Assembly: GCF_024449095.1 (NCBI RefSeq)
Contig: NZ_CP024629.1
Location: 115,816 to 179,815, forward strand
Length of the DNA stretch: 64,000 bases
Reading direction: 5' to 3'
Origin: Vibrio coralliilyticus
GTDB lineage: Bacteria > Pseudomonadota > Gammaproteobacteria > Enterobacterales > Vibrionaceae
A program made the translations under genes and the position numbers. The notes under the pieces are model-generated. The model was not told the origin of the DNA and made no database searches. It saw nothing but the letters and a program-made list of their open reading frames with translations. This document shows, piece after piece, positions 3,124 to 14,880 of the stretch; positions within the stretch are counted from its first letter, which is position 1; each line of letters starts with the position of its first letter.

Positions 3124-3146
3124 AATATTACCTCGTTTGATTGTTG

Positions 3147-3169
3147 GCGCTCTAGGTCGCAGTGAGCGC
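3147..3169 (-). promoter_or_regulatory. 5'-leader stem-loop, copy 3 (GCGCTC/GAGCGC)
   Basis: Six-base-pair stem around the loop TAGGTCGCAGT, 24 bases before the ATG at 3123. It is the strongest of the three copies. The 3124-3461 gap otherwise holds AT-rich DNA and the promoter module at 3371-3415. Confidence 0.65.
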
Positions 3170-3370
3170 GTTATTTAACGGGGTCTAGTCTGTCCTTTTT
3201 AGGGTGGTAATTGCAATTGATATATTTGTTAACTTATTGATTATATTGGTTTATTTTTGGGTTTGGCTGTGATTGAACTTTCGCGTTTTAAATCTTTTTT
3301 ATAAGAAGACGTTGAGGTTTTAAAGAGTGACATTCAGTCCTGGCAAGTCAATCCTAATCTCTCTTGTTTT

Positions 3371-3415
3371 TGTAATTGTTTTATATACATGTGGCGTGTA
3401 ATTGTTATAATTACA
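3371..3415 (+). promoter_or_regulatory. Promoter with tandem TGTAATT operators, module 1
   Basis: Box 1 (3371-3389, TGTAATTGTTTTATATACA) ends in the -35 hexamer TATACA (3384-3389). Box 2 (3397-3415, TGTAATTGTTATAATTACA) is a perfect inverted repeat with arms TGTAATT/AATTACA and contains the -10 hexamer TATAAT (3406-3411). The spacer is 16 bases and the boxes start 26 bases apart. The same geometry recurs at 5347-5391 and 8686-8730. A dimeric repressor binding both boxes would block the polymerase. Confidence 0.75.
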
Positions 3416-3461
3416 CAATCAACTTAATCGAAAGCTAACGGAAACAACAAAGGAGAGCACC

Positions 3462-3683
3462 ATGGCAACATTTTCAAGCATCACTAAAGTAGTTAACGAT
3501 GAGTGTCTTGTTAAGCCTAGCATCACCCTAGAATGTCGTCGTTTTATGCCAAAAGACAAACGTTGGACAGTCACTTGCCGAAGCGGCTGGCCTATGGACA
3601 ATCCAATTTCAGTTGATCGCCATGTGTCTAGGAGCCGCGCTAGGGAGCTAGCTCAAACATTTTTACGTGAAATGACTATTTAG
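3462..3683 (+). CDS. Small basic hypothetical protein (73 aa)
   Basis: First gene after promoter module 1. AAAGGAG lies 7 bases before the ATG, and the ACGGAAAC leader is at 3438-3445. The protein is rich in Arg/Lys with two cysteines and a C-terminal helix (SRARELAQTFLREM). I recognise no family. It is followed by the Chi-loop hairpin at 3696-3725. Confidence 0.7.
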   Translation: MATFSSITKVVNDECLVKPSITLECRRFMPKDKRWTVTCRSGWPMDNPISVDRHVSRSRARELAQTFLREMTI

Positions 3684-3695
3684 AGTTGGTCTAAG

Positions 3696-3725
3696 CGCTG
3701 CGCTCGCTGGTGGTTGAGCGCAGCG
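3696..3725 (+). other. Perfect 10-bp hairpin with Chi octamer as loop
   Basis: CGCTGCGCTC (3696-3705) pairs perfectly with GAGCGCAGCG (3716-3725). The 10-base loop is GCTGGTGGTT, so the octamer GCTGGTGG begins exactly at the loop. There is no T-run, so it is not a classical terminator. A related hairpin without the Chi loop lies at 10717-10742. Confidence 0.8.
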
Positions 3726-3762
3726 GTTACGCCAATTACAAAGGAAATAGAGAGGCAGAAAT

Positions 3763-4029
3763 ATGACAGCTCAATCTAAGACAATTGATGCAAATGAAGC
3801 ACCAACAGGCTTTTATGCAGTACTTAAAAGCGAGCTTACTAATCCAACGGGAGATTACCCAAATATCTGTACACATTGCGATTGGCGTAAACAATGTTGT
3901 GACCCGAAAACAGATTTACGCTTGAACATTCACCGATGCATGAGCGACCCACTGATTACGGAAAGTGGAGATAAAGTAGAGCGCAATGATGGGTGTTCAG
4001 TTGTCTTTAAACGAATTGAACTCAGCTAA
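3763..4029 (+). CDS. Small Cys-rich hypothetical protein (88 aa), possible zinc binder
   Basis: A GAGAGG ribosome-binding sequence precedes the ATG. The middle contains CTHCDWRKQCC and a later HRCM, a Cys/His arrangement that could bind zinc or an Fe-S cluster. No signal peptide. It stands in the small-gene array, one gene per hairpin-bounded unit. Function unknown. Confidence 0.7.
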   Translation: MTAQSKTIDANEAPTGFYAVLKSELTNPTGDYPNICTHCDWRKQCCDPKTDLRLNIHRCMSDPLITESGDKVERNDGCSVVFKRIELS

Positions 4030-4071
4030 CTTATTATCAACTAACATCCCACCGAAATACGAGGTAAACAA

Positions 4072-4335
4072 ATGAATAGTTCAGTATGGGGCAAAGACCA
4101 ATTAGGTTTCTTTCTAAATGGAGATACCACGGAACGTGTGGCTGAGGGAGGAGTTAGCGGTATTGTTAACACCTCTACTCAACCAAGTAGCATTTATGTA
4201 TTTGGCTACGAAGGTCAGCACAAAGCGGTTAAAAATCTTATTGGTAAGGCTGGGGTCACTAGAGATTCGGTAGTGATTGACAATAGTTCCCAAAAGAAAC
4301 TTGGTAACGCTGCCTCATTCTCGGAATTAAATTGA
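4072..4335 (+). CDS. Hypothetical protein (87 aa)
   Basis: Starts with ATG after GAGGTAAAC, 42 bases past the preceding gene, probably in the same transcript. The protein is polar and Gly/Ser-rich with no membrane segment or recognised motif. The hairpin element at 4350-4400 follows. Confidence 0.65.
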   Translation: MNSSVWGKDQLGFFLNGDTTERVAEGGVSGIVNTSTQPSSIYVFGYEGQHKAVKNLIGKAGVTRDSVVIDNSSQKKLGNAASFSELN

Positions 4336-4349
4336 GAGCTAACTTACTC

Positions 4350-4400
4350 GATGCGCCACCAGTCGATTGAGGCGCATCTGGTACGTTTTGCAAAAAAACG
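4350..4400 (+). repeat. Hairpin element of the array (GATGCGCC type)
   Basis: GATGCGCC (4350-4357) and GGCGCATC (4371-4378) form a perfect 8-bp stem with loop ACCAGTCGATTGA. A second inverted pair follows, CGTTTT (4384-4389) and AAAACG (4395-4400). The element recurs almost identically at 8985-9034 and in weaker form at 4613-4652 and 11157-11201. Confidence 0.75.
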
Positions 4401-4426
4401 AACAACTACTAAGGCAATTAAGACTT

Positions 4427-4609
4427 ATGACTAGACAGCTAAAGGTAACTGCTTACAAAACCGAATCAGATTATGCGAATGGCATTGCAGAGTATGTATA
4501 TGAAAGCGAGGTTAACGAGAAGTTAGCGATCAATGCTCATAATGACTTTGAAGAGTCTGGGTACTGGCTTGTAACAACAACCAATGAAGAAGGTAAGTTG
4601 ATTCACTAA
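4427..4609 (+). CDS. Small acidic hypothetical protein (60 aa)
   Basis: I chose the ATG at 4427 (MTRQLKVTAYKTE) because upstream in-frame codons would place the start inside the hairpin element. AAGG lies 12 bases before it. The protein is soluble, with a likely helix-strand arrangement, and I recognise no family. Confidence 0.55.
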   Translation: MTRQLKVTAYKTESDYANGIAEYVYESEVNEKLAINAHNDFEESGYWLVTTTNEEGKLIH

Positions 4610-4612
4610 ACG

Positions 4613-4652
4613 CCACCAGCGCGGATATCTAGCTGGTTTTCTTGAAAAACTG
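4613..4652 (+). repeat. Array element, degenerate copy with reverse Chi
   Basis: CCACCAGC (4613-4620, the Chi complement) lies just after the stop codon. It is followed by AGCTGGTTTT and AAAAACTG, an inverted pair like the second hairpin of the 4350-4400 element. Confidence 0.5.
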
Positions 4653-4764
4653 AATTATCTAACATTGGAGTGAAAGCTAGTTTAGTGATTCGTTTACCCA
4701 ACGATAGGATTTCATGCTCCATACTGAAATCTAAACACCCCCTCACTTCTGCCCATCACATAGT

Positions 4765-4797
4765 AAAAGACCGCCATATATCTTATAGCGGTCTTTT
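4765..4797. terminator. Bidirectional terminator
   Basis: AAAAGACCGC and GCGGTCTTTT flank a 13-base loop. It separates the plus-strand small genes from the convergent gene at 4812-5264. Confidence 0.75.
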
Positions 4798-4811
4798 CGT
4801 TGTTAGGCTGC

Positions 4812-5264
4812 CTAAAACATTGATGCTTCAAATCCGGCCATTAACTTCCTTTGGTGAATTTGGTTTTGGGTTGAGCGCACTTCACTTTCAGTATCAAGAG
4901 CGCTTTTTACCAGCGCTAATATATTCAAGTCACCAATATGATGCTCATCCAGATAGAGATCATACGTGTACTCACCGTCAAACGTTACACGGATGCGGTC
5001 ATCAAACATCTCATATTGAAATAGTTGGTTGCTTGCTGCGTAAATGAGCTGCTCGGGTTCAGCTTGTCGAACTACTCGGGGCTCGCCATATTCGACACCT
5101 CCAGAGATATACACAATTGATTGTGTCATGGTTAGGACGCTTTTAAGAGCATCGCAGGAAAGGTTTGGTAAATCCATATTCACCAACAGTTGGGAAACAG
5201 TTTGTTCTGCCTGCTTTTCGATGCGCTTTGCATTCAAGTCAAAGATTTGAGCTGTGTTCTGCAT
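4812..5264 (-). CDS. Hypothetical protein (150 aa), divergent to the array
   Basis: The only minus-strand gene inside the small-gene array. AGGA lies 10 bases before the ATG, and it has its own promoter at 5283-5305. Residues 1-70 look helical, then an acidic strand-rich part follows (EYTYDLYLDEHHIGDLNILALV). No signal peptide or membrane segment. A plus-strand frame over the same DNA (4670-5047) lacks comparable signals. Function unknown. Confidence 0.7.
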   Translation of the reverse strand: MQNTAQIFDLNAKRIEKQAEQTVSQLLVNMDLPNLSCDALKSVLTMTQSIVYISGGVEYGEPRVVRQAEPEQLIYAASNQLFQYEMFDDRIRVTFDGEYTYDLYLDEHHIGDLNILALVKSALDTESEVRSTQNQIHQRKLMAGFEASMF

Positions 5265-5282
5265 AGATGTATTCCTGATTAA

Positions 5283-5305
5283 TGTTAACTGACCGAATTA
5301 TTGTA
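5283..5305 (-). promoter_or_regulatory. Promoter with GGTCAGTTAACA element (minus strand)
   Basis: On the minus strand the -10 TACAAT (5300-5305) is followed by five bases and GGTCAGTTAACA (5283-5294). The same order and spacing occur at 11335, 13603 and 14858. The element falls on the first transcribed bases and may be an operator or an initially transcribed signal. Confidence 0.65.
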
Positions 5306-5346
5306 CCGCATTTAAAGTTATTGTTAAGCAAAAATACTCAATTTAA

Positions 5347-5391
5347 TGTAATTATTTTATTGACATCGCTAGTGTCATTATTACAATTACA
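5347..5391 (+). promoter_or_regulatory. Promoter with tandem TGTAATT operators, module 2
   Basis: Box 1 (5347-5365, TGTAATTATTTTATTGACA) ends in a consensus -35 TTGACA. Box 2 (5373-5391, TGTCATTATTACAATTACA) carries the -10 TACAAT (5382-5387). The spacer is 16 bases and the box offset 26, as in modules 1 and 3. Box 2 has one changed base in the left arm. Confidence 0.75.
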
Positions 5392-5418
5392 TTTATTAAG
5401 TCGAAAAGGAGGGGAACC

Positions 5419-5475
5419 ATGAAATCAAAGCACGTATTTTCACTAGGACTTCTAAAGGCGGTCAGCCATGTCTAA
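5419..5475 (+). CDS. Possible 18-aa leader peptide
   Basis: AAAGGAGGGG precedes an ATG that opens the frame MKSKHVFSLGLLKAVSHV. Its stop codon lies 5 bases inside the next gene (start 5468), an 8-base overlap. The strong ribosome-binding sequence belongs to this frame, and the next gene has none of its own as good. Translation of the peptide probably brings ribosomes to the downstream start. Confidence 0.5.
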   Translation: MKSKHVFSLGLLKAVSHV

Positions 5476-5722
5476 TTTGCTTAAGTCATTAGCCATTCAA
5501 TCAGACAACAATAGCACCTACATTGCTCTTCCTAATGGTGAAGTGATTGAATTCACGGAACTCGATAACGCGTTATACGTTGACCACCGAGAGCAACTTG
5601 GGGGAGATAGTCTTGGGGCTGTATGTATAAACATGAGCGCTAATGATTGTCGCGCTGCTAGGAACGAACACAGGGAGGCCACCAGCTCAATGGCCACTCA
5701 AATATTTAATCAAGACATCTAA
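5468..5722 (+). CDS. Hypothetical protein (84 aa)
   Basis: Start ATG overlaps the 18-aa leader frame. The protein is acidic, soluble and strand-rich (YIALPNGEVIEFTELDNALY). CCACCAGC at 5679-5686 lies in the coding sequence. No known family recognised. Confidence 0.65.
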   Translation: MSNLLKSLAIQSDNNSTYIALPNGEVIEFTELDNALYVDHREQLGGDSLGAVCINMSANDCRAARNEHREATSSMATQIFNQDI

Positions 5723-5732
5723 GGGAATAGCA

Positions 5733-5909
5733 ATGGAAAAACTACACATCAAATGCACTTGCGGTCGCGATGAAAAGCTTACAGAGCAGCAAGCTGATTG
5801 TTTGCATTGGCAAGAGTCTGAAACTGTAACGTGCGGTTGCGGCAAGTCACTGCCATACAAAGGCCATGATGAGGTTAGAGGTTATGGAGTGGCATGGGTG
5901 CAGGAATAA
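5733..5909 (+). CDS. Small zinc-ribbon-like protein (58 aa)
   Basis: AAGGGAATAG lies just before the ATG. CTC near the N-terminus, C33 and CGC further on form a Cys set (CTCGRDE...TVTCGCGKS) typical of short zinc ribbons. One of at least four tiny Cys-rich proteins in the array. Role unknown; nucleic-acid binding is possible. Confidence 0.65.
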   Translation: MEKLHIKCTCGRDEKLTEQQADCLHWQESETVTCGCGKSLPYKGHDEVRGYGVAWVQE

Positions 5910-5975
5910 GGATAGAGATTGGTAGCCCCCGCTGGTGGAGCATTCAACAAAACCATGAACGTACGGAAAGGAATT

Positions 5976-6290
5976 ATGGACAAAGAACTCACTTTTTCAC
6001 TCACCATTGCTTACGAAACTGACACAGAAGACCAGATCATTTGTGAATCCTCATTGAAAGAGAACTTAGCGACCGCTATTGAAAACCAGCGTGTGAATGG
6101 TGCGCTAACACCTGATGACATTTCAGCCACGAAGGTAGTCATTGAAATGGTGGAAGATGATAAACGTTGTCATGAATGCGGGTTGAAGTTTGAGATTGAT
6201 TCAGGGGGCATCGCCAAGCACTTTGATGATTATGGCGATCATGACTGGGTAGCAGATGGCGACCATGTCCCATATGCAATTGAATCGTGA
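5976..6290 (+). CDS. Hypothetical protein with C-terminal Cys/His motif (104 aa)
   Basis: I chose the ATG at 5976 because the shared ACGGAAAGGA leader (5963-5972) is its ribosome-binding sequence. The C-terminal third contains CHEC and then histidines at HFDDYGDHD, which suggests zinc binding. The N-terminal part is acidic. The Chi octamer at 5931-5938 lies in the gap before it. Confidence 0.65.
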   Translation: MDKELTFSLTIAYETDTEDQIICESSLKENLATAIENQRVNGALTPDDISATKVVIEMVEDDKRCHECGLKFEIDSGGIAKHFDDYGDHDWVADGDHVPYAIES

Positions 6291-6349
6291 ACCCCCAATA
6301 ACTCTAAGAGCGTAAATAACTGAGCCTTAGATAAGGGGGATGACATGTT

Positions 6350-6652
6350 ATGAATACTGTAGAAACAGAAGTGTTATACAAATACGTAAGCAACCTTGAT
6401 GAGAGAGGAGCCAACCTATTTGTTTCATCAGAATGCACTAATATGTGCTTTTTCAAGAAACTGGCTGATAACGTGTATTTTCAGTTTGGCTTTACTCCTG
6501 AAAATTACCCTGCAATAGAGTCGGGAATAATTGAAATTACAGATAAGCAGTTGATTGAGCACATTCACACAAATTGTGGAGGGTGGTTCGCTCGTAAATG
6601 CTCTTTAGATGTCGATCTAGATAACTCCGGTTTCGTTGTCGAACTCGACTAG
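6350..6652 (+). CDS. Hypothetical protein (100 aa)
   Basis: AAGGGGGATG precedes the ATG with usable spacing. The protein is soluble and acidic, has four cysteines, and ends in alternating hydrophobic residues (SLDVDLDNSGFVVELD). I recognise no family. Confidence 0.6.
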   Translation: MNTVETEVLYKYVSNLDERGANLFVSSECTNMCFFKKLADNVYFQFGFTPENYPAIESGIIEITDKQLIEHIHTNCGGWFARKCSLDVDLDNSGFVVELD

Positions 6653-6657
6653 CGGCC

Positions 6658-6695
6658 TTATTCGACGCTCCCGTAGGGTGTATCCGACAACGCTA
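6658..6695 (+). repeat. Array element, TTATTCGA-type hairpin
   Basis: TTATTCGACGCTCCC, a short loop and GGGTGTATCCGA form an imperfect hairpin. It begins like the element at 9999-10034 (TTATTCGATGC...GCATCCGA), so the two belong to one family. Confidence 0.5.
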
Positions 6696-6716
6696 CTTTT
6701 TACAAGGAAAGGACTA

Positions 6717-7100
6717 ATGACAATTTTTAACGCAACACTTCAAGATGTATTGGATTTCCATGGGCGAACCACAGAATGGGAAGAGGCTTGTTCTGCTGGG
6801 AAGTTCTTTACAGTGGCAACACGCTTACTTGGTGGTGGATATGCCATTGGCTCAACAGGTGAAGACCACAAACCCCTTCCAGATCTTTATCCGACATTAG
6901 CTGATGCCAATAGAGAGAACCAAGAACTCATTAATTCATACCTTGATGACATCAGGAATGGTGATCGTGAAGAAGGGGATGAGTGGGATGGTGAAGTCCT
7001 TGAACTTAACTGGAGTGGTAGCACTCAAGTTGTAGAGCTTGCTATTGATGGTGACGTGTTACATGAAGGGGATTGGCGAGAAATGGCAGGCATTCTTTAA
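6717..7100 (+). CDS. Acidic hypothetical protein (127 aa)
   Basis: Start ATG follows ACAAGGAAAGGACTA, close to the shared leader. The protein is acidic (about a quarter Asp/Glu), soluble, with an N-terminal helix and a C-terminal strand-rich end. High acidity is common among small DNA-mimic proteins, but no family is recognisable here. Confidence 0.65.
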   Translation: MTIFNATLQDVLDFHGRTTEWEEACSAGKFFTVATRLLGGGYAIGSTGEDHKPLPDLYPTLADANRENQELINSYLDDIRNGDREEGDEWDGEVLELNWSGSTQVVELAIDGDVLHEGDWREMAGIL

Positions 7101-7131
7101 CTGCCCCCTAGCAAATGGAAAGTAGACCATA

Positions 7132-7398
7132 ATGCAAAGAGTTACTAACAAACTATTATCTGAATTACAGCGCACCCATATCACCCCAGTTCATCAAAAC
7201 ATTATTGAGCTGGTGGAAAGGGGATTTCACGTAATGTTTGACACAACGACTTGTGAAGGAGTTGCTACCAAATCCGATCTCAAAATCACTTTTCTAATTG
7301 GAGGTGAGAACGTCTATTTTGATTACAGCGCTTACACCAAATGTGGTGTTGGCAGCTTTATAGACCAACTCACCGAACTCCACAAAGGCTTGGATTAA
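7132..7398 (+). CDS. Hypothetical protein (88 aa)
   Basis: AAATGGAAAGTAGACCATA precedes the ATG. Soluble mixed alpha/beta protein. A Chi octamer (7209-7216) lies in the coding region. Same strand and spacing as its neighbours. Not recognised. Confidence 0.6.
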   Translation: MQRVTNKLLSELQRTHITPVHQNIIELVERGFHVMFDTTTCEGVATKSDLKITFLIGGENVYFDYSAYTKCGVGSFIDQLTELHKGLD

Positions 7399-7453
7399 TC
7401 GATTGCACTGCTAATACCAATACGACAACAGATAGAAGCGGGACACCAACACA

Positions 7454-7708
7454 ATGAAAACATTAGAGCTGCATGTGTATGGAATCATCATTTCATACAA
7501 CTCGGAGGATGATAAAAAAGGATGCGCTATCAGCACTGATTTAAAAGAACTACCAGAAACAGAGGAGAACGCGGAGTTCAATTGTGCGGTCGATGGGATT
7601 GAGTCGATGATACTCGGTCATTTCGCCGCAGGTATTGACGTTAAATGTGAAGCTTACTTGGAGGGGCTTGAAACGGCATACAACGCAGTTAGTGCTCAAT
7701 TTAGCTAG
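7454..7708 (+). CDS. Hypothetical protein (84 aa)
   Basis: Acidic, soluble, three cysteines. It starts 55 bases after the preceding gene behind AGAAGCGGGA. Last complete gene before a 1-kb stretch with damaged genes. Not recognised. Confidence 0.6.
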   Translation: MKTLELHVYGIIISYNSEDDKKGCAISTDLKELPETEENAEFNCAVDGIESMILGHFAAGIDVKCEAYLEGLETAYNAVSAQFS

Positions 7709-7821
7709 TTTTGCCGCTGCTTAACCCCAGACAGAGCTCATTACTAAACGAACTAACAAAGCAACTTAAAGACTGGAGTGTGTGGCGCATCCATAGATAT
7801 GAAGGATAGCGATGCCGCCAC

Positions 7822-7950
7822 ATGATGGACACAAGACCTTTAGCACTCAATATCCATTCCAAACACGCCATTAGTGATATCAAACCAGGTACAGCACTAT
7901 TCATTTATGAATCCCACCAGGATGAAAATGTTCAGGACATGATTTTCTAA
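7822..7950 (+). CDS. Possible very small protein (42 aa)
   Basis: ATGATG opens a frame reading MMDTRPLALNIHSKHAISD and ending at TAA 7948-7950. The ribosome-binding sequence is weak (GGATAG), so this may be a gene remnant. No family recognised. Confidence 0.3.
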   Translation: MMDTRPLALNIHSKHAISDIKPGTALFIYESHQDENVQDMIF

Positions 7951-8003
7951 AACATGCTAATTAGGGCTTAAATATACGCTGGTGGTTTTGCAAAAAAACT
8001 TTA
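7935..8003 (+). repeat. Intergenic repeat element with Chi octamer
   Basis: GACATGATTTTCTAAAA, then GCTGGTGG (7978-7985), running into GTTTTGCAAAAAAAC, an inverted pair. It resembles the elements at 13500-13555 and 14751-14836 in order of parts. Confidence 0.55.
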
Positions 8004-8163
8004 TCAAATTAGGTCGATTCGGGATTAAAGTGTGTATTGCACTAACTGACACAATCCGAATTCAGCTTTCCGTGAAAGTCTGCCCCTGCATGGACTACAC
8101 TAAGTAGGCAGGGCGTTAATTGCCATTGTCTGTATTTCCCCAATAACACGGAGATTACTGACA
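8004..8163. other. Non-coding stretch with a hairpin
   Basis: No gene seen. GCCCCTGC (8082-8089) can pair with GCAGGGC (8108-8114). ACGGAGA at 8148 resembles the array leader and would serve the recombinase remnant that follows. Confidence 0.4.
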
Positions 8164-8462
8164 ATGAGCAAAGCCAGTTCACTTCAACCTAACCAAATTA
8201 ATCGCGTTCTACGTTCCTGTAAAGCAATCCAACATGGACAAGCCAAAGCCTGTTCAATCGCTTTAAGTCATGCAGCACTGCGCGTTACCGAAATAGCACT
8301 TCTCGATGTGAAAACAGTCTTGTTACCAATTCAGTGATATCTGGGGTCAGTTTAGAACAAATGGCAAGAGTGCTCGGACATAGTGACGCAAGCACTACAA
8401 TTTTCTACGTCTGCATTCAACAAGCACGCATCCGAGAAATAAACTCTCTGCATTGGCTGTGA
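8164..8462 (+). pseudogene. Broken tyrosine recombinase (phage-type integrase) gene
   Basis: From ATG 8164 the frame reads MSKASSLQPNQINRVL and later ALRVTEIALLDVKTVLLP, then stops at 8335-8337. A second frame (from about 8331) reads VSLEQMARVLGHSDASTTIF and ends at 8460-8462. LGHS with following ST..Y is the C-terminal His/Tyr region of tyrosine recombinases, and ALRVTEIA is the region around the first catalytic Arg (compare LR.sEi). The middle of the catalytic domain is missing and the frames differ, so this is a decayed gene. It shows past integrase-mediated events in the array. Confidence 0.75.
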
Positions 8463-8474
8463 ACCTTATCAGCA

Positions 8475-8672
8475 CTATTCATCAATTACTGGCTTGAAAC
8501 CAACTCTTGAAAGCAGTTCTGTCATTATCGTCTGAGGAAGTCGGACTTGTGACGCATTTCTGAACTGTCTAATTTGCTGCCGTTCAACACCCAAATGAAT
8601 TGCGAGTTGATTGTCATTTTCTAATCCATAAAGAGCCAGATGTGTATCTGCTATTTCGTTGTTATTTAATAT
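8475..8672 (-). pseudogene. Helix-turn-helix protein remnant or small repressor
   Basis: A minus-strand frame reads LNNNEIADTHLALYGLENDN, then QLAIHLGVERQQIRQFRNAS, and ends in GFKPVIDE. The middle part fits a helix-turn-helix (QLAIHLGVERQQIRQ). No ATG, GTG or TTG lies at the expected start, so it is truncated or uses an unusual codon. It is divergent to the operator pair at 8686-8730, the position expected for an autoregulating repressor. Confidence 0.45.
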
Positions 8673-8685
8673 CTTTTTTATTTGA

Positions 8686-8730
8686 TGTAATTATAATATT
8701 GACATAAAGGATGTAATTATTATAATTACA
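8686..8730 (+). promoter_or_regulatory. Promoter with tandem TGTAATT operators, module 3
   Basis: Box 1 (8686-8704, TGTAATTATAATATTGACA) ends in the consensus -35 TTGACA (8699-8704). Box 2 (8712-8730, TGTAATTATTATAATTACA) is a perfect inverted repeat holding the -10 TATAAT (8721-8726). The 16-base spacer and 26-base box offset equal modules 1 and 2. The bases after it (TATCAACTTAATC, then ACGGAAAC) also match module 1. Confidence 0.8.
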
Positions 8731-8770
8731 CTATCAACTTAATCAAGAACAAACGGAAACACAGGAGTGC

Positions 8771-8977
8771 ATGAGAATGCTTTCAGATAACCAAGTAAAA
8801 CAGATTCAGCCAGCAATGGCGGCGTTTTCTTCTTATGTAACATCGCCAAATGATGAGCAAAAGTCTCTCATTGAACAGGCACATAAAGAGGGTTTAGTTA
8901 ACGTTCGAGCAAAATACTTAGTGAGCTGGACTGACAAAGGTGTGGCTCGTTTTAGAAATGCCAATGGTTTTAGCTGA
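8771..8977 (+). CDS. Small hypothetical protein (66-68 aa)
   Basis: First gene after promoter module 3. AGGAG (8763-8767) is 3 bases from the ATG at 8771 and 9 from an in-frame ATG at 8777; the latter has the better spacing. The protein is soluble and helical. Its end (KYLVSWTDKGVARFRNANGF) looks like a small beta sheet. Not recognised. Confidence 0.65.
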   Translation: MRMLSDNQVKQIQPAMAAFSSYVTSPNDEQKSLIEQAHKEGLVNVRAKYLVSWTDKGVARFRNANGFS

Positions 8978-8984
8978 TTTACTC

Positions 8985-9034
8985 GATGCGCCACCAGCCG
9001 AGTGAGGCGCATCTGGTAAGTTTTCTAGCAAAAC
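8985..9034 (+). repeat. Hairpin element of the array with reverse Chi
   Basis: GATGCGCC (8985-8992) and GGCGCATC (9006-9013) form a perfect stem. CCACCAGC (8991-8998) overlaps the left arm. GTTTT and AAAAC (9020-9034) follow as the second inverted pair. Near-identical to 4350-4400. Confidence 0.75.
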
Positions 9035-9057
9035 CACCAACGTAACGGAAAGACATC

Positions 9058-9339
9058 ATGAAAGTACTAGGTATTGAGATTAAGCGACCACATTCAGTCC
9101 AAGTGCTGTTGGTACTAAGCTTGGTTGTTTTATCAGCCGTTTTTAGAGAGCAATTGGCATTAATGACGAACACCAACCCGTTAGACCTTTGGGGTTACTC
9201 TGTAGCTGCGGCGACAGGAATACTTCTCCACGCATGTGGGTTAAATATTAAGTTCACATACCACCTAATTGTAATTGCAGTCCTTTGTGGAGTGATGGCG
9301 CTGGTGGCGAGAAATCTAAGCGGATTTATTTTTTCTTAA
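9058..9339 (+). CDS. Small membrane protein (93 aa)
   Basis: Three hydrophobic segments (about residues 14-33, 45-60 and 68-90) predict an inner-membrane protein. The ACGGAAAGAC leader (9045-9054) precedes the ATG. A Chi octamer (9300-9307) lies in its 3' part. Function unknown. Confidence 0.7.
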   Translation: MKVLGIEIKRPHSVQVLLVLSLVVLSAVFREQLALMTNTNPLDLWGYSVAAATGILLHACGLNIKFTYHLIVIAVLCGVMALVARNLSGFIFS

Positions 9340-9357
9340 TCAGGACGGAAAGACACT

Positions 9358-9663
9358 ATGAAATTTACATCAATCATAACAGCACTCACGCTTTGTCTAC
9401 TCACCTCAGTTGCGAATGCTTCATGCAAATTCGGTGATGTAGAGATAGAGCCGCATTTGCAAGTGTCCTATTTCAGCCCAGATTTGGCGCATGAAATTGC
9501 TGAAAGAAAAGTCAAAATGGGACAGTCCGAAACTTACGAACAAGCAATGGAATACATAAATCAAAAACCTACGATAGCTCACATCATTTTGTATTGCGAA
9601 ATCAGCTATGAAGTCAAAGATGGTGAAGTGACTGCTTCAGGCTATGCGCTAGTTCGCGGATAA
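9358..9663 (+). CDS. Exported small protein (101 aa)
   Basis: Residues 1-21 are a Sec signal peptide with a cleavage site after ANA. The mature part has two cysteines that could form a disulfide. The ACGGAAAGAC leader is at 9345-9354. It probably acts in the periplasm. No family recognised. Confidence 0.7.
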   Translation: MKFTSIITALTLCLLTSVANASCKFGDVEIEPHLQVSYFSPDLAHEIAERKVKMGQSETYEQAMEYINQKPTIAHIILYCEISYEVKDGEVTASGYALVRG

Positions 9664-9704
9664 GTATATAAACGCAATCTATAACGGAAAGACAGGAGCC
9701 AGTT

Positions 9705-9995
9705 ATGAGCGCATCATCAACGAAGAAAATTTTCTTAGTCACAGTAACTATTCGCTTCGGAGGATATGAAAAATCGGTTGAATCGTTCAGAGAGGCCGCT
9801 AGTGAAGCTGACGCTGAATATGATGCATTGTGCGGTGAGACACACAATGAACCGCTAACTAGGGAGCTATATGAACAAGGTGATGATTGGTGGGATGACG
9901 ACATGATTTATGAAGCTTCTTCTTTGGAAGTCCCTGAAGAGCTAGCTTGTGCTCTCAAAAAGTTCAATGAATACCCATTTAGATTAATCCAGTAG
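9705..9995 (+). CDS. Very acidic hypothetical protein (96 aa)
   Basis: Strongly acidic with a DDWWDDDM run near residue 65. The ACGGAAAGAC leader is at 9684-9693, and a further AGGAG lies close to the ATG. Size and charge resemble small anti-restriction or DNA-mimic proteins, but I see no motif that assigns it. Confidence 0.65.
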   Translation: MSASSTKKIFLVTVTIRFGGYEKSVESFREAASEADAEYDALCGETHNEPLTRELYEQGDDWWDDDMIYEASSLEVPEELACALKKFNEYPFRLIQ

Positions 9996-10001
9996 TCTTA
10001 T

Positions 10002-10034
10002 TCGATGCTCTCTCTTTGCTGGTGGGGCATCCGA
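10002..10034 (+). repeat. Array hairpin with Chi octamer in loop
   Basis: TCGATGC (10002-10008) pairs with GCATCCGA (10027-10034) with one bulged base. The loop contains GCTGGTGG (10018-10025). It is the second hairpin in the array with this octamer in the loop. Confidence 0.65.
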
Positions 10035-10071
10035 TAAACCTACTACCACAAACATCACGGAAAGACTATCT

Positions 10072-10575
10072 ATGAATATGCCGCAGCCAATAATCCATAC
10101 GCGACTAATGCAGTCAGATATTGAAGAAGTTTTACGAACCGCAGGATATGACCAGAAGGACTACCCGTGGGCTGTTCGATTTGTAGGACGCTTCCCTGTA
10201 CCTAAATGGCAGCGTGATCTTTGTTGGAGCAGAGAACAAAAAATCAAACTTATTGAATCCATTTGGTTGGGCTTTGATATCGGTTCATACATCGTAAATG
10301 AGTGGGATATGGAAGGTAATGTGCTGGTGGAAAACTCAGACATCGTAATTGATGGTCAGCAACGTATTGAAGCCATTTGTGCATACGCTCTAAATGATGA
10401 ATTCTCAGTATTTGGAAAACGCTATTCGGAGCTGAATAAGCGAGAACAAGCACGTTTTAAAAAGACTAGCTTCCCTAAACGTATCACTCACACATTCAAC
10501 GAGGATGCTTTAAAAGAAACATACAACCGACTCAATTTTGGTGGTACACAACACAAGCCAGAACAACGGGCATAA
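10072..10575 (+). CDS. Stand-alone DUF262 (GmrSD/ParB-like) domain protein
   Basis: 167 aa. Residues 45-75 (WQRDLCWSREQKIKLIES) and IDGQQR at 93-98 are the hallmarks of the DUF262 N-terminal domain, which shares the ParB/sulfiredoxin fold. In GmrS-type restriction proteins this domain hydrolyses nucleotides. The C-terminal DUF1524 HNH nuclease domain is absent, so this is a single-domain form. It could be an orphan regulator, or a decoy of a type IV restriction system. The ACGGAAAGAC leader is at 10057-10066. A Chi octamer lies at 10323-10330 in the coding region. Confidence 0.8.
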   Translation: MNMPQPIIHTRLMQSDIEEVLRTAGYDQKDYPWAVRFVGRFPVPKWQRDLCWSREQKIKLIESIWLGFDIGSYIVNEWDMEGNVLVENSDIVIDGQQRIEAICAYALNDEFSVFGKRYSELNKREQARFKKTSFPKRITHTFNEDALKETYNRLNFGGTQHKPEQRA

Positions 10576-10600
10576 CTAGGACGGAAAGAAGGAGAAAGCC

Positions 10601-10708
10601 ATGATAGATGCTAACGGTGTTTGTAAAGAGTGCGGCCGCGAGTTTGACGATTTGCCCGAGTATTCGGCATGTCCAGACGAAGACTGTCCAAGTAACGAAG
10701 AGGAGTAG
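10601..10708 (+). CDS. Tiny zinc-ribbon protein (35 aa)
   Basis: ACGGAAAGAAGGAG provides both the shared leader and a strong ribosome-binding sequence. The protein contains CKEC near the N-terminus and CPDEDC further on, a four-Cys zinc ribbon, and an acidic tail (SNEEE). It is too short to classify. Confidence 0.6.
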   Translation: MIDANGVCKECGREFDDLPEYSACPDEDCPSNEEE

Positions 10709-10716
10709 TTTTAGCC

Positions 10717-10742
10717 GCTGCGCTTGAGCTATCGAGCGCAGC
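10717..10742 (+). repeat. Array hairpin (GCTGCGCT/AGCGCAGC)
   Basis: Eight-base-pair stem with a 10-base loop. The stem is the same as in the hairpin at 3696-3725, but the loop lacks the Chi octamer. Confidence 0.65.
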
Positions 10743-10788
10743 ACTAAGACTATTCACAGCAAACAACGGAAAGACGAGGGAACGAGCT

Positions 10789-11139
10789 ATGACAATGATT
10801 ACTGCATCTATTGAAGTCGACACTAACGCTTTTAAACCAAATGAAGCGCCTAAACCTCAGTTAAATCTCGGTTGGTTTTGCCGCGCGGGGAAGAATAACG
10901 TAAACGAGAGTATTTCGTTAAATGGTGGAAGAGTGGCATCTATTTCAGTTGAGCAAGGGGAAGGGAGAACTTGCAAAAACCTTACTATCCATAATTGTCA
11001 CCTTTCATTTGTGTCTTTTGAAGATGCTAAGAAAGCATTTGAAGTTCCGGTGTATAAGGTGACACGCGGAGTCACGCTTCATCTAAGCGGTATGGATGAC
11101 GTTCTACCTAGTTCGTATCGAGCACTTGAAGAAGGTTAA
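10789..11139 (+). CDS. Hypothetical protein (116 aa)
   Basis: The ACGGAAAGAC leader (10766-10775) and GAGGGAACGAGC precede the ATG. Soluble, beta-rich protein with three cysteines. Not recognised. The array hairpin at 11157-11201 follows. Confidence 0.65.
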   Translation: MTMITASIEVDTNAFKPNEAPKPQLNLGWFCRAGKNNVNESISLNGGRVASISVEQGEGRTCKNLTIHNCHLSFVSFEDAKKAFEVPVYKVTRGVTLHLSGMDDVLPSSYRALEEG

Positions 11140-11156
11140 TAAGGCCACTTGTTTGG

Positions 11157-11201
11157 TACGCCACCAGCTTTAGGCGTATCTGGTAGGTTTTATTACAAAA
11201 C
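11157..11201 (+). repeat. Array hairpin element with reverse Chi
   Basis: TACGCC (11157-11162) pairs with GGCGTA (11173-11178). CCACCAGC (11161-11168) starts in the stem, and GTTTT...AAAAC follows. Same layout as 8985-9034. Confidence 0.6.
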
Positions 11202-11235
11202 TATTTATCAACAACATCACAGTATGACACTGAGG

Positions 11236-11264
11236 CAGGTATTAACGAATCTAATGCCTGATTT
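11236..11264 (+). terminator. Probable terminator of the upstream gene block
   Basis: CAGGTATTA and TAATGCCTG form a nine-pair stem with one G-T pair, followed by ATTTT. It lies before the next promoter at 11335. The rest of 11140-11377 holds the hairpin element and that promoter. Confidence 0.45.
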
Positions 11265-11334
11265 TACCGACCCACACATCAATATTAATACCCCAAATTA
11301 GCTTACATTTATTTGCTCATCATTCGTTTTGTGC

Positions 11335-11357
11335 TATATTTATATGGTCAGTTAACA
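11335..11357 (+). promoter_or_regulatory. Promoter with GGTCAGTTAACA element
   Basis: TGTGC precedes the -10 TATATT (11335-11340). Five bases later comes GGTCAGTTAACA (11346-11357). It drives the gene at 11378 and probably the following genes. Confidence 0.65.
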
Positions 11358-11377
11358 AAACAAACACGGAGAGCACT

Positions 11378-11545
11378 ATGGAAATCAAGCAACTCACTCA
11401 CATGACCATCCAGTCAATCGAAAACATTCAGGAAATGGCAGTCTTGGACTTTAACGCAAACAGCGTTTGCCCGTTCGAACCAAACAGCAATGAAGAGGCC
11501 ATCTGGCTAGATAAGCTCGAAGAGCTAAATACCCCACTTCATTAA
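11378..11545 (+). CDS. Small acidic hypothetical protein (55 aa)
   Basis: ACGGAGAGC lies before the ATG. The frame reads MEIKQLTHMTIQSIENIQEM and ends at TAA 11543-11545. Helical and acidic. Position directly behind a strong promoter suggests high expression. Function unknown. Confidence 0.6.
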   Translation: MEIKQLTHMTIQSIENIQEMAVLDFNANSVCPFEPNSNEEAIWLDKLEELNTPLH

Positions 11546-11571
11546 CCGCTAACTCGCCCGAGGGATTCATT

Positions 11572-11871
11572 ATGCCTTGCAAGAATTGTATCGATGACAT
11601 TTGTAGCCGCCGCTGTGTAGCGACAAAACCACAAGCCAGTATTAGCCCATTCTACTTAGGTGAGGCTAAGGACGGCAGGGAACACGACTTGTTGCAAGGC
11701 AATGAACACGAACCACTGTTAATTGGGGGTGAGACGTATGAAGCTCCACTCACAGGATGGACACATACGTTAATGCACGCCTACTGCGTTGCTTATGCGA
11801 GAGCTTACGGTGCAGATACCCAGTGGGATGTTTATTTAGGTAGTCAGCAGGTAGGCGGCACAGACCTATAG
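11572..11871 (+). CDS. Hypothetical protein with N-terminal Cys cluster (99 aa)
   Basis: Starts 26 bases after the preceding stop. MPCKNCIDDICSRRC gives four cysteines in the first 15 residues, a likely metal site. The C-terminal half has aromatic residues and looks globular. Not recognised. Confidence 0.6.
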   Translation: MPCKNCIDDICSRRCVATKPQASISPFYLGEAKDGREHDLLQGNEHEPLLIGGETYEAPLTGWTHTLMHAYCVAYARAYGADTQWDVYLGSQQVGGTDL

Positions 11872-11909
11872 CAATTTACTTGCTACTACTTACGTCATTG
11901 GATGGAATC

Positions 11910-12242
11910 ATGAAAAAACTAATCATATTTTTTACAGCACTACTTGGCTTTATTGCCTTTGTTGCTGCTAGCCACACTTATGCAACCAATAAGCCTAAAA
12001 CGGGGTTTGAATCTCCAGCGTACAAACATGCTTATGTAGAGCTAAAACATCATTTCCCACGATTGGCAGATCTGCAATTCTGCCGAAGTGGGGCGGCGTT
12101 TGTAATAGCGGGTTTGCCAGAGTATGCGGAACAATACCAGGCTGACCATGGCCATTGCATCAAAGTGTTCGTTCGCCTGTATAAAGGTCGCACCCCTAGC
12201 TTAATCAATCCCACTTATGCAGCAAATGAGGTGACGTTATGA
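11910..12242 (+). CDS. Exported or membrane-anchored protein (110 aa)
   Basis: Residues 1-25 form a hydrophobic signal or anchor (MKKLIIFFTALLGFIAFVAA). The mature part has two cysteines. I chose ATG 11910 because it gives a proper signal sequence. The stop codon overlaps the next start (ATGA), so the two genes are translationally coupled. Function unknown. Confidence 0.6.
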   Translation: MKKLIIFFTALLGFIAFVAASHTYATNKPKTGFESPAYKHAYVELKHHFPRLADLQFCRSGAAFVIAGLPEYAEQYQADHGHCIKVFVRLYKGRTPSLINPTYAANEVTL

Positions 12243-12616
12243 TCTCATTCCTTCGTACTAACCTCTTAATATTGGCTGTAGCGCTAATGTCTGCGGTTTA
12301 TTTGGCGTGGTCGTTTGGTACACAGTTTGGCTTACTGTCTGCATTGGCTGTCGTATTGTTTTACTGTTTACCCGCTTGGTTGTCGATCAGGACTAATGAC
12401 CTATATGTATCAGTTGGATTTAATGCCTGTCTATTGGTTTCACTGGAGCTCACAAAGCTAAGTATTAATAGCACTAATTTACAGCTAGCGATATGTGGTG
12501 TGTATGTCGTATTTATCACTACCGCACTTGCAGTCTACTGCTACTTAACGCAGCGCCCCCTTTCTATATTTGCCCGTAATAGGTCAGCAACTAAACCAAC
12601 CACCAGCGAGGAATAA
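12239..12616 (+). CDS. Membrane protein with about four segments (125 aa)
   Basis: Hydrophobic segments at about residues 9-26, 30-47, 55-75 and 83-103, with a short charged tail. Coupled to the preceding exported protein through a 4-base overlap, so they may act together in the envelope. Not recognised. Confidence 0.65.
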   Translation: MISFLRTNLLILAVALMSAVYLAWSFGTQFGLLSALAVVLFYCLPAWLSIRTNDLYVSVGFNACLLVSLELTKLSINSTNLQLAICGVYVVFITTALAVYCYLTQRPLSIFARNRSATKPTTSEE

Positions 12617-12621
12617 CCGGT

Positions 12622-13008
12622 ATGAAATCACGTGCAACATTAGAACAAGGATATTACCGTGCTGTGCTGGTGGATATTCCTACGAACGATGCCATAATCG
12701 TCTATTCAGATGGAAGTCATTACTACCTTTTTGATAGAACAATACCTATTCACAGACTGGATCCGGATGCGCTTATTCTCGATACAGCACCATTACCACT
12801 AGCGGATGTGACGTGCACCTCTATTCCATTTCTTACGGGTGAGAGCCTGTCGATACCTAATAGCTGCATTGCTGAGCCTCAACAACCTAATACTGAGAGC
12901 TTGGGATTATTAAGCCGATTTACACACTGGTGGTTAGCCAAAGTTTACTTGCCGCTGTCATCCCGCTATTGCCGTGGCGATTCAATGGAGAGTGTCAATC
13001 ATGGGTAA
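12622..13008 (+). CDS. Hypothetical protein (128 aa)
   Basis: Starts 5 bases after the upstream stop, with GAGGAATAACCGGT just before the ATG. Soluble, beta-rich N-terminal part (YYRAVLVDIPTNDAIIVYSD). The end overlaps the next gene. A Chi octamer lies at 12666-12673. Not recognised. Confidence 0.6.
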   Translation: MKSRATLEQGYYRAVLVDIPTNDAIIVYSDGSHYYLFDRTIPIHRLDPDALILDTAPLPLADVTCTSIPFLTGESLSIPNSCIAEPQQPNTESLGLLSRFTHWWLAKVYLPLSSRYCRGDSMESVNHG

Positions 13009-13390
13009 CTGTAAACACCGCAAGTGTAATAACACCACAGAAGGGCGAAAACATTATTGTTCAGAACGGTGTAAATACTGGGAAGGACAACTGCGCAAAG
13101 ATGAGAATAGACATTTACCGCCCTTACATCAGAGAAACGACGAGCACTTTTATGCGATTATTTCTGTTTGCTGTCTTAGTGGTCAGGGGCGCAGAGCTGG
13201 TGGAACAGTCAAAGGAGGAATGTCAGCAAGCATATTGCCAACCTTCGCTATTCAAAAAGTTACGGATGATAACCTACGTAAACATTTCTCTTTTAGTGGT
13301 GTACGAGCGGCGTCATTGTGTGGGGGTGGTACTATTACCAGAGAGGCGTTCTATGCAGCCAAGCAACCTTATTTTAATTCACCCACATAG
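13001..13390 (+). CDS. Zinc-finger-like small protein (129 aa)
   Basis: ATG 13001 overlaps the preceding gene by 8 bases. The first 30 residues contain CKHRKC and YCSERC, an FCS-type or C4 zinc-finger pattern. After about residue 50 the sequence is less distinctive. A second open frame (13101-13412) covers most of the same DNA, so the true extent is uncertain. Confidence 0.5.
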   Translation: MGNCKHRKCNNTTEGRKHYCSERCKYWEGQLRKDENRHLPPLHQRNDEHFYAIISVCCLSGQGRRAGGTVKGGMSASILPTFAIQKVTDDNLRKHFSFSGVRAASLCGGGTITREAFYAAKQPYFNSPT

Positions 13391-13412
13391 GGATGATATG
13401 ACAGTTCAATAA
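13101..13412 (+). CDS. Alternative overlapping frame with hydrophobic N-terminus (103 aa)
   Basis: ATG 13101 lies 16 bases after GAAGGAC. The frame reads MRIDIYRPYIRETTSTFMRL, then a hydrophobic stretch LFLFAVLVV, and stops at 13412. It shares about 290 bases with the frame at 13001-13390. Either one is a shadow, both are made, or a frameshift joins them. I regard the other as somewhat more likely because of its zinc-finger pattern. Confidence 0.25.
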   Translation: MRIDIYRPYIRETTSTFMRLFLFAVLVVRGAELVEQSKEECQQAYCQPSLFKKLRMITYVNISLLVVYERRHCVGVVLLPERRSMQPSNLILIHPHRDDMTVQ

Positions 13413-13416
13413 CATT

Positions 13417-13437
13417 ACGCCGCTTGATAGCGGCGTA
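13417..13437 (+). terminator. Hairpin at the end of the array
   Basis: TACGCCGC and GCGGCGTA form an 8-bp stem with a short loop just after the last small gene. There is no T-run, so any termination would be weak or factor-dependent. Confidence 0.45.
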
Positions 13438-13499
13438 CTTAATTGCATTAACGCAAACTCAATCCGTGCATCCAATCTCATTCGTATCCCCTTCAAAAG

Positions 13500-13555
13500 A
13501 TGTTCTAAGAAGACACTGATTCTCTAAAATATGCTGGTGGGGGCAGGTTTTTGGT
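13500..13555 (+). repeat. Intergenic repeat element with Chi octamer
   Basis: TTCTAAGAAGAC, CTCTAAAA, GCTGGTGG (13533-13540), then GGGCAGGTTTTGG. The order of parts is the same as at 14751-14836. Confidence 0.6.
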
Positions 13556-13602
13556 GAAGTAAACAACGCGAATAAATTCGAGAATACTAATGTATTTTGC
13601 GC

Positions 13603-13625
13603 TATAATATTTGTGTCAGTTAACA
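13603..13625 (+). promoter_or_regulatory. Promoter with TGTCAGTTAACA element
   Basis: -10 TATAAT (13603-13608), five bases, then TGTCAGTTAACA (13614-13625). It serves the DUF932 gene. Confidence 0.7.
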
Positions 13626-13649
13626 AATGTTATATTAAAGGAGGTCGCC

Positions 13650-14588: not shown

Positions 14589-14608
14589 CTTAGCGATACC
14601 CAAGTGAA

Positions 14609-14636
14609 AAGGTCAGCAATAGTGCTGGCCTTTTTT
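14609..14636 (+). terminator. Rho-independent terminator after the DUF932 gene
   Basis: AAGGTCAGC and GCTGGCCTT form a stem around AATAGT, followed by six Ts. The remaining 14637-14909 gap holds a repeat element and a promoter. Confidence 0.8.
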
Positions 14637-14750
14637 GTTTCTTACTAAAACGTCCCTCCCGTATCTTAAATCTACTTCAAAAACAATCGCGCAATCTAAT
14701 ACTCTCAAACATTCCATTGACGTTTGTGTGTCTCGCTTTCCAATCCTTTA

Positions 14751-14836
14751 TTTCTAATAAGACGTGATTTTCAAAAAAGCGCTTCTAGGGGGCATTCTAG
14801 TTTGGGCTGGTGGGGCAGGTTTTGCAGAAAAACCTT
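14751..14836 (+). repeat. Intergenic repeat element with Chi octamer
   Basis: TTTCTAATAAGACGTGATTT, later GCTGGTGGGGCAGGTTTTGC (octamer at 14806-14813), then AAAAACC, an inverted pair with GGTTTT. The first block recurs at 16057-16071. Confidence 0.6.
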
Positions 14837-14857
14837 TGTGCAAATATACAGGTGTGC

Positions 14858-14880
14858 TATATTAATAAGGTCAGTTAACA
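14858..14880 (+). promoter_or_regulatory. Promoter with GGTCAGTTAACA element
   Basis: TGTGC precedes the -10 TATATT (14858-14863), then five bases and GGTCAGTTAACA (14869-14880). It serves the ParB-like gene. Confidence 0.7.

Follow-up and report, generated by a model that had tools for sequence, protein, structure and literature searches.

To our knowledge, integrons are the only well-described platforms on which a tyrosine recombinase collects gene cassettes, and the site concerned, attC, is a folded inverted repeat with R boxes at the 3' end of the cassette. Short repeated elements also organize the PeSL cassettes of T4-type phages, in which a promoter and a stem-loop lie between genes and no recombinase heads the array, and the shufflon of plasmid R64, in which the plasmid tyrosine recombinase Rci acts on several copies of a short asymmetric repeat. 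The present study concerns a stretch of 64,000 nucleotides from the Vibrio coralliilyticus contig NZ_CP024629.1, hereafter called the window, to which all coordinates refer unless a record or locus is named. The densest part of the small-gene array in this window, 8013–11293, is probably the relic of an integron-like cassette platform with a recombinase-specific core, and its likely mode of assembly can be traced through related arrays on other plasmids.

The likeness to integrons would lie in a tyrosine recombinase that heads a same-strand row of promoterless small genes, in cassettes that are duplicated and swapped and are bounded by a recurring site, and in a likely promoter ahead of the first cassette. 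The enzymes of the present family differ, however, in scoring far under IntI models and in being without the N-terminal part of Xer-type enzymes: four of five enzymes gave 15.8–22.6 bits with TIGR02249 (cut-off 265; the fifth was not listed) and four of five gave 12–17 with PRK15417 (435), and the full-length match to XerC starts at profile position 105 of 295 in three of the five, the other two matching near the C terminus only. The borders differ as well: folded attC hairpins are replaced by short linear cores, and in a check for attC-type folding, in which R boxes were sought by eye only, most of the short Shewanella junctions formed weak folds or none. Moreover, a conserved enzyme-side site stands upstream of the recombinase, with the cassettes downstream. 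Judged by these traits, the system is one that would work like an integron although its enzyme is neither of the IntI type nor two-domained and its borders are not attC sites. Similarity to PeSL arrays is found in the small unrelated early genes and in repeated short elements that perhaps allow modular shuffling, but the border repeat described here carries no promoter and three of the seven cassettes have no stem-loop. In the available portion of the report on the integron-like elements at rulB of pWW0, site-specific recombinases are followed by variable genes on Pseudomonas plasmids (PMC4542609), and the pA506 recombinase of the present family also adjoins rulAB. Those elements differ in having three successive recombinase genes and a 3-bp target repeat, and, in the same portion of the report, its authors state that no repeat regions that might serve movement were found (PMC4542609). 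The R64 shufflon (in part, PMC8138268) resembles the present arrays in its plasmid tyrosine recombinase and multiple short repeats, but it inverts segments of one gene, whereas here whole genes of the same orientation are gained, lost, and duplicated. The anti-defence islands of plasmid leading regions (in part, PMC11541004) are likewise dense in small genes and borne on conjugative-type plasmids, but the cargo here is mostly without matches. Among the open-access literature matches listed on cassettes, shuffling, and leading regions, as far as the accessible parts of these sources extend, no comparable cassette system was found.

The features of the platform in the window are as follows.

8005–8012, no strand: left direct repeat CAAATTAG, matching the left border of a 4.38-kb insertion in V. 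campbellii
8013–11293, plus: predicted integrated platform, recombinase remnant and seven cassettes, delimited by its ends and the direct repeats
8065–8078, plus: conserved site GCTTTCCGTGAAAG, 97 bp upstream of the recombinase start; its reverse complement contains ACGGAAAG
8164–8462, plus: g13 and the sequence behind it, two ends of a tyrosine recombinase of about 222 aa with the middle deleted
8686–8730, plus: operator-flanked sigma70-like promoter, class P1, between remnant and first cassette; operator words present, promoter role putative
8753–8759, plus: core ACGGAAA before g14
8771–8977, plus: g14, cassette gene
8977–9035, plus: stop-proximal H hairpin after g14 (model R1, 65.2 bits; training sequence)
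9045–9052, plus: core ACGGAAAG before g15
9058–9339, plus: g15, small protein that reads as membrane-like
9345–9352, plus: core ACGGAAAG before g16
9358–9663, plus: g16, small protein that reads as signal-peptide-like
9684–9691, plus: core ACGGAAAG before g17
9705–9995, plus: g17, with a homologue in V. parahaemolyticus L015 (65% identity)
9996–10053, plus: stop-proximal H hairpin with Chi after g17 (R1, 60.9 bits; training sequence)
10057–10064, plus: core ACGGAAAG before g18
10072–10575, plus: g18, GmrSD_N/DUF262 N-terminal domain alone (Pfam, 5.3e-15; PADLOC NsnA, 8.4e-14)
10581–10588, plus: core ACGGAAAG before g19
10601–10708, plus: g19, 35-aa protein with a weak zinc-ribbon match below the Pfam cut-off
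10709–10750, plus: stem-loop of the CGCTGCGCT type after g19
10766–10773, plus: core ACGGAAAG before g20
10789–11139, plus: g20, final cassette
11147–11202, plus: stop-proximal H hairpin after g20 (R1, 55.1 bits; training sequence)
11294–11301, no strand: right direct repeat CAAATTAG

The two pieces of the remnant match residues 1–55 (84%) and 174–222 (78%) of a V. campbellii protein by tblastn, and the intact homologue lies on a V. campbellii plasmid (L013:12539–13207). There, the enzyme and the small genes make up a 4.38-kb block that is absent in V. diabolicus L045 and is bordered by a 9-bp direct repeat and inverted ends (TATTCGGATTA/TAATCCGAATA). Because the ends of the window element match those of the V. 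campbellii block and are accompanied by the 8-bp repeat CAAATTAG, we infer that 8013–11293 entered as one insertion. The left end is 81.6% identical to the V. campbellii insertion end over 163 nt, and the match at the right end is weak (81% over 32 nt, E value 0.02); the 8-bp word occurs six times in 64 kb when both strands are counted. Since the recombinase is broken, the array in the window probably no longer changes, save through a related enzyme supplied in trans.

The word ACGGAAAGA is present in exactly six copies in 64 kb, all on the plus strand at 9045–10766, and all six fall within the predicted platform. Its shorter form ACGGAAA additionally precedes genes at 3438, 5963, and 8753, and is found no more than 60 nt upstream of 9 of the 24 plus-strand array genes, including all seven genes that start at 8771–10789. 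The first-pass annotation of this DNA had described a shared leader before at least eight starts of the array; the frequency of the word is indeed far above chance, but it is clustered at 8753–10789 and is not array-wide. CGGAAA was found upstream of none of the 68 backbone genes used as a control. We read the leader word as a putative cassette boundary.

Relatives of the enzyme (E value 1e-5) were found at 243 places in 235 of 72,556 plasmid records, with Burkholderia, Pseudomonas, Vibrio, Aeromonas, and Shewanella as the main genera among the matches listed. Burkholderia accounts for the most records (64 of 235), and none of the 18 plasmid loci viewed is from this genus. A same-strand run of small genes stands directly behind the enzyme in 13 of these 18 loci, and opposite-strand genes come first in L087, L088, and L103. 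The catalytic residues of tyrosine recombinases are R, HxxR, H, and Y, and of the 11 enzymes aligned, 10 retain them, the window copy itself being broken; two intact relatives match PF00589 (1.9e-10 and 1.8e-15). A Shewanella query at an E value of 1e-15 gave no match in 369 class-level genomes; lacking a positive control, this search is uninformative. Some arrays also have an ArdC gene or toxin-antitoxin genes within them or just behind them.

In Vibrio and Shewanella, a site that is either GCTTTCCGTGAAAG (C type) or similar to GTTTTCCCCCAAAG (G type) lies 95–98 bp before the start of the recombinase gene. When annotated genes picked as array members were compared in 15 arrays, a set without L086, L087, L015, and 11 Vibrio genome loci, GGAAA was found on the sense strand in 93 of 165 upstream 60-nt windows and on the other strand in 4 of 165, and its background in coding sequences in the same comparison was 1–14%. 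The base before GGAAA varies with the upstream site: CGGAAA predominates 32:2 in six C-type arrays and GGGAAA 20:2 in four G-type arrays, which have a CCC-type site (Fisher test, 6e-11, with kinship ignored and five arrays outside the test). The second array of the window plasmid (positions 6970–12649 of record NZ_CP071847.1), also outside the Fisher test, fits this covariation. It is headed by a divergent 240-aa relative without HxxR, GH, and Tyr (record positions 6970–7692), and it has TTTCCT upstream of the enzyme and an AGGAAA core in the array (A5, T2, C1, G1). Among 11 Vibrio genome loci with the enzyme, four show clear GGGAAA enrichment (8/21, 6/19, 5/18, and 11/22) and one shows weak enrichment (2/16); the upstream site reads differently in the 6/19 locus and was not seen in the 11/22 locus.

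Exchange at cassette borders is most visible in Shewanella xiamenensis, where L079, L085, and L086 have an identical recombinase, HigBA, and one identical cassette, and diverge directly after CGGAAATT. In L085, a further copy of the shared cassette lies 4 kb from the first (336 nt, 99.1%), another cassette is present twice as well (306 nt, 98.7%), and the duplicated cassettes are bordered by CGGAA(A). Over 16 arrays, which did not include the window and L013, a core (CGGAA, GGGAA, or CGGGA) lay no more than 14 nt away in both sequences at 24 of 48 similarity edges, as compared with 8.2% (one sequence) and 0.6% (both) of random positions; several edge rows represent the same event, and about 13 distinct junctions remain by our own count. 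When 20 edges were rechecked, the left edges coincided with the start of the core or slightly preceded it, and the right ones stopped just past it, 6–31 nt beyond the stop codon. The edges alone do not separate core from gene border, and it is the covariation and the backbone control that carry weight. The position of the core, the linkage of recombinase and array, the core-bearing cassette borders, and the covariation of core and site can be read directly from the sequences.

The mechanism we propose is as follows. A small tyrosine recombinase of about 222 aa, consisting of the catalytic part only, would recognize a short core, here ACGGAAAG, and recombination between two cores would cause a cassette to be excised, duplicated, inserted, or swapped. 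Each cassette would be composed of the core, a Shine-Dalgarno (SD) sequence, the gene, and sometimes a 3' stem-loop; a related site with inverted arms precedes the recombinase gene by about 97 bp, and a promoter between the recombinase and the first cassette would drive the promoterless genes of the row. Insertion of the entire platform as a block would also be possible. That the recombinase performs the exchange, how two cores would be brought into synapsis, and what use the cassettes may have for the plasmid are the parts of this scheme that we infer.

Several observations weigh against this reading. The core is short (6–8 bp) and has no second arm, all evidence for exchange is comparative, and the match at the right end of the window element covers 32 nt. 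The other 24 of the 48 edges are without a core in both sequences, and most of the 20 rechecked edges also have a stop codon no more than 10 nt away, because the core often abuts the stop. Kinship is ignored in the Fisher test. Of the five arrays outside it, the second array of the window plasmid fits the covariation, but L104 does not, having a TTTCCC site yet AGGAAA 7 times and GGGAAA 4 times, nor does L090 (TTTCCG site; C0, G2, A2); L102 is weak (C2, G1, A1, T1), and in L089 no site stands near −97. Among the arrays in the test, L080 is a tie (C1, G1). MAO6 (L014) has the enzyme and no clear array, ANA-3 (L081) has one small gene only, and 6 of the 11 Vibrio genome loci show no core enrichment downstream of the enzyme. 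The presence of about one enzyme place per plasmid (243/235) also fits an enzyme for multimer resolution. Finally, both swaps seen outside recombinase arrays are not at cores. The Aliivibrio plasmid pAWOD_2 and the Vibrionaceae contig G237:C150 are 98–99.9% identical over about 32 kb and, when small gaps and a repeat tract are set aside, have one differing block (712 versus 2,020 bp), the start of which coincides with a stop codon while its end falls about 50 nt short of a hairpin; and the homologue of g17 in V. parahaemolyticus, missing from V. campbellii, has its borders at stop codons, with about 17 nt of other sequence. These two swaps fit better with a gene-plus-hairpin unit than with the core model.

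One alternative explanation is that ACGGAAAG is a translational or post-transcriptional leader, such as a weak SD sequence or a regulator site, and that junctions lie nearby since gene borders tolerate recombination. The GGA of the core is SD-like, GGAAA occurs upstream of 7 of the 68 backbone genes, and the distance from core to start codon in the seven window cassettes is 13–23 nt, but four of these seven genes have a separate SD-like word 3' of the core, and the full CGGAAA is the word that precedes none of the backbone genes. The proximity of most core edges to stop codons would also suit a leader, but the right edges reach past the stop to just beyond the core, and the base before GGAAA tracks the recombinase-side site in most arrays. 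We regard this explanation as unlikely.

Another possibility is that the small recombinase resolves plasmid multimers through the site upstream of its own gene, and that the arrays are an unrelated hotspot in which RecA shuffles genes with the aid of Chi and the hairpin and leader repeats. The single recombinase place in most plasmid records and the hairpin-plus-leader blocks common to plasmids without the neighboring genes agree with this idea, but cores of 6–9 bp are too short for RecA, the Shewanella arrays are swapped without evident border hairpins, and core specificity tracks the recombinase type. The abundance of Chi is a further point in its favor, because no other 8-mer of the plasmid is as over-represented as the Chi octamer GCTGGTGG (63 copies in 180 kb, where 6–10 are expected at Markov orders 3–4 and 18 at order 5). 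Taken together, this second explanation seems quite improbable.

The Chi copies in the window span 1437–62890, and 14 of them are inside 3371–13412 against 0.4–1.4 expected (orders 2–4). GCTGGTGG is named as candidate Chi in 23 Vibrio species in the accessible part of PMC8022716. The whole 5.02-Mb genome has 495 copies versus 158 of the reversed word, and the word is likewise enriched in four further large plasmids of Vibrio (67, 35, 65, and 41 versus 8, 4, 5, and 3 reversed) but not in Aliivibrio pAWOD_2 (2 versus 3). On NZ_CP071847.1, Chi is one-sided in two stretches that were picked after inspection, 0–60 kb (10 minus, 0 plus) and 100–130 kb (7 plus, 0 minus). Under the polarity of RecBCD as we assume it to be, the surroundings of the array would be spared by both. 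Tandem copies of Chi that overlap were observed in V. campbellii (L024:23265–23286) and V. parahaemolyticus (L015:15884–15898). GC skew was tried as a guide to oriV and was uninformative.

The promoter-like sequence ahead of g14 belongs to class P1, which is marked by TGTAATTAT palindromes and has 14 sites at nine places on the plasmid, three of them in the array (3371–3415, 5341–5391, and 8680–8730); no such palindromes were found in four other Vibrio plasmid stretches. Class P2, a TATAAT-like box with GTCAGTTAA just after it, occurs at 5293 (minus), 11347, 13615, and 14870, and is common to the window plasmid, G004:C3, pAWOD_2, and G237:C150. Matches to GTCAGTTAA in four DUF932-bearing plasmids number 14, 16, 9, and 10, not all of them promoter-like. 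Between 3371 and 14870, seven places carry motifs of P1 or P2. The first-pass annotation had overlooked these shared promoter/operator classes and the Chi excess, as well as the recombinase remnant and the direct repeats on either side of the platform.

The hairpins of the array belong to at least two families. Stems fold at all six gene ends where they had been proposed (3696, 4350, 8985, 10002, 10717, and 11157). The H family, TTAYTCGATGC..GCATCYGRTAA, is found at 4343, 6656, 8978, 9996, and 11147, of which 6656 was not in the earlier list, and the second family, of the CGCTGCGCT type, at 3690 and 10714. In the platform, a 3' hairpin is carried by four of the seven cassettes (g14, g17, g19, and g20) and not by g15, g16, and g18. 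In the TTAYTCGATGC stem-loop, 4 of 13 pairs are changed on both sides in some sequence, and the covariation term is small (−0.31). The hairpin model has six matches on its own plasmid and none elsewhere in its own genome at an E value of 0.001, and it has matches in 5 of 227 Vibrio genomes, its own included. Of 17 matches, 14 were tested for stop distance, the other three being opposite-strand readings of counted hairpins, and in 13 of them the hairpin start lies −6 to +8 nt from a stop codon; 9 of the 14 are training sequences. The hairpin is kept behind homologues of g09 (E value 4e-4) and g17 (E value 0.44). A rough look at four further hairpins in other Vibrio genomes (L035–L038) placed the upstream open reading frame (ORF) end 53 and 36 nt away in two, found no such end for the third, and did not settle the fourth. 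Because of the G-U pairs and the orientation with the gene, we read the H hairpin as a likely RNA-level 3' element carried in some cassettes. Its arms, TTATTCGATGC/GCATCCGATAA, resemble the V. campbellii insertion ends TATTCGGATTA/TAATCCGAATA, for which reason hairpins were considered as general recombination sites; this candidate was dropped because Shewanella arrays swap cassettes without evident border hairpins (L079 was folded, L085 and L086 were judged by eye) and because loop lengths vary. Rfam gave nothing at gathering score across 3000–14000, and one exact hairpin pattern had no match in viral contigs.

A GTTTT-AAAAC inverted pair had been described after many hairpins; it follows three of the six (4350, 8985, and 11157) but not the remaining three, and such pairs occur elsewhere too (4636, 7985, and 14819). 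GTTTT-N(3-5)-AAAAC palindromes were observed between genes at 4385, 4636, 7985, 9020, 11187, and 14819, and related plasmids carry variants of the palindrome, TTTTGCAAAA in G004 and TTTTTCTGAAAA in pAWOD_2 and G237. As UP elements these pairs were rejected, 14819 alone fitting.

The modular nature of the array, already supposed at first pass, is borne out by blocks gained or lost at gene borders in related plasmids, but exchange at hairpins does not hold in general: in arrays headed by a recombinase the border carries the core, and the Shewanella arrays show exchange without evident hairpins. The original model, in which gene-plus-hairpin units recombine at the hairpins and form an anti-defence store within a conjugative leading region, is highly improbable, because, against the stop-proximal hairpins, the hairpins kept behind the g09 and g17 homologues, and the single-gene unit of V. 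parahaemolyticus with its borders at stop codons, stand the three window cassettes without a hairpin, the Shewanella arrays that exchange without evident hairpins, and a search that identified no relaxase or oriT and no anti-defence family but DUF262 in g18.

The array stretch is 100% identical to the 179,777-bp Vibrio sp. SCSIO 43139 plasmid NZ_CP071847.1 (window position = record position minus 85279), in whose record a replication protein of the RctB type and transfer proteins similar to Dot/Icm are annotated. It comprises 26 small ORFs at 3462–13390, 25 of them on the plus strand and one on the minus strand (4812–5264), in keeping with the mostly plus-strand layout noted before. It is flanked by DUF4942 (1453–3123, minus) on one side and DUF932/ParB (13650–15974) on the other. 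Both anchors are also present in G004:C3, where, of the small genes in between, just one has a match in the array of the window (tblastn, E value 0.01). The features of the array outside the platform are the following.

3462–7708, plus (4812–5264 on minus): small-gene cluster g01–g12, with ACGGAAA solely before 3462 and 5976
4342–4400, plus: H hairpin after g03 (model R1)
6656–6706, plus: H hairpin after g09 (model R1); the V. nigripulchritudo g09 homologue likewise has one behind it
11378–13390, plus: small genes g21–g26, right of the platform, without the ACGGAAA core

Of the 25 array proteins scanned, the recombinase remnant apart, g18 alone was above the Pfam cut-off, and it was also the only one matched by PADLOC/PHROGs, libraries that were not built for anti-defence proteins. 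The supposed anti-defence store therefore finds little backing in a cargo of which just g18 (DUF262), 1 of 25 scanned, matches a defence-type domain. This protein could be a decoy against GmrSD-type defence. A homologue of g18 (49% identity) lies close to the recombinase in G004:C3. No relaxase was found by Pfam (10 window proteins) or NCBIfam (8 window proteins), five of 80 ORFs scanned with a loose HUH pattern matched, none of them convincingly, and oriT was not identified on the window, where no search was made by means other than the relaxase scans. The large neighboring genes at 16420–22982 (691 aa and 1481 aa) are without a Pfam or NCBIfam match, and DUF932/ParB of pAWOD_2 is likewise flanked by genes of comparable size and order; an unrecognized relaxase could be among the large genes. 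A DUF932 pattern search of genome contigs gave 37 matches, none confirmed.

Somewhat more tentatively than the relic itself, but still on balance, we favor the view that a second, integron-independent system of cassette capture exists on gamma- and betaproteobacterial plasmids, in which a recombinase consisting of the catalytic domain only would use a linear core (CGGAAA, GGGAAA, or AGGAAA) matched to its upstream site, and in which rows of small genes would be gathered, perhaps for plasmid establishment or defence conflicts. If this is true, a plasmid counterpart of the integron with a simpler enzyme would explain the long rows of tiny unannotated genes on plasmids, and these genes could be delimited and catalogued by their cores. 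The system would also permit a tractable test of how a recombinase uses short (6–8 bp), asymmetric sites, and it would give concrete cassette limits for tests of cargo function.

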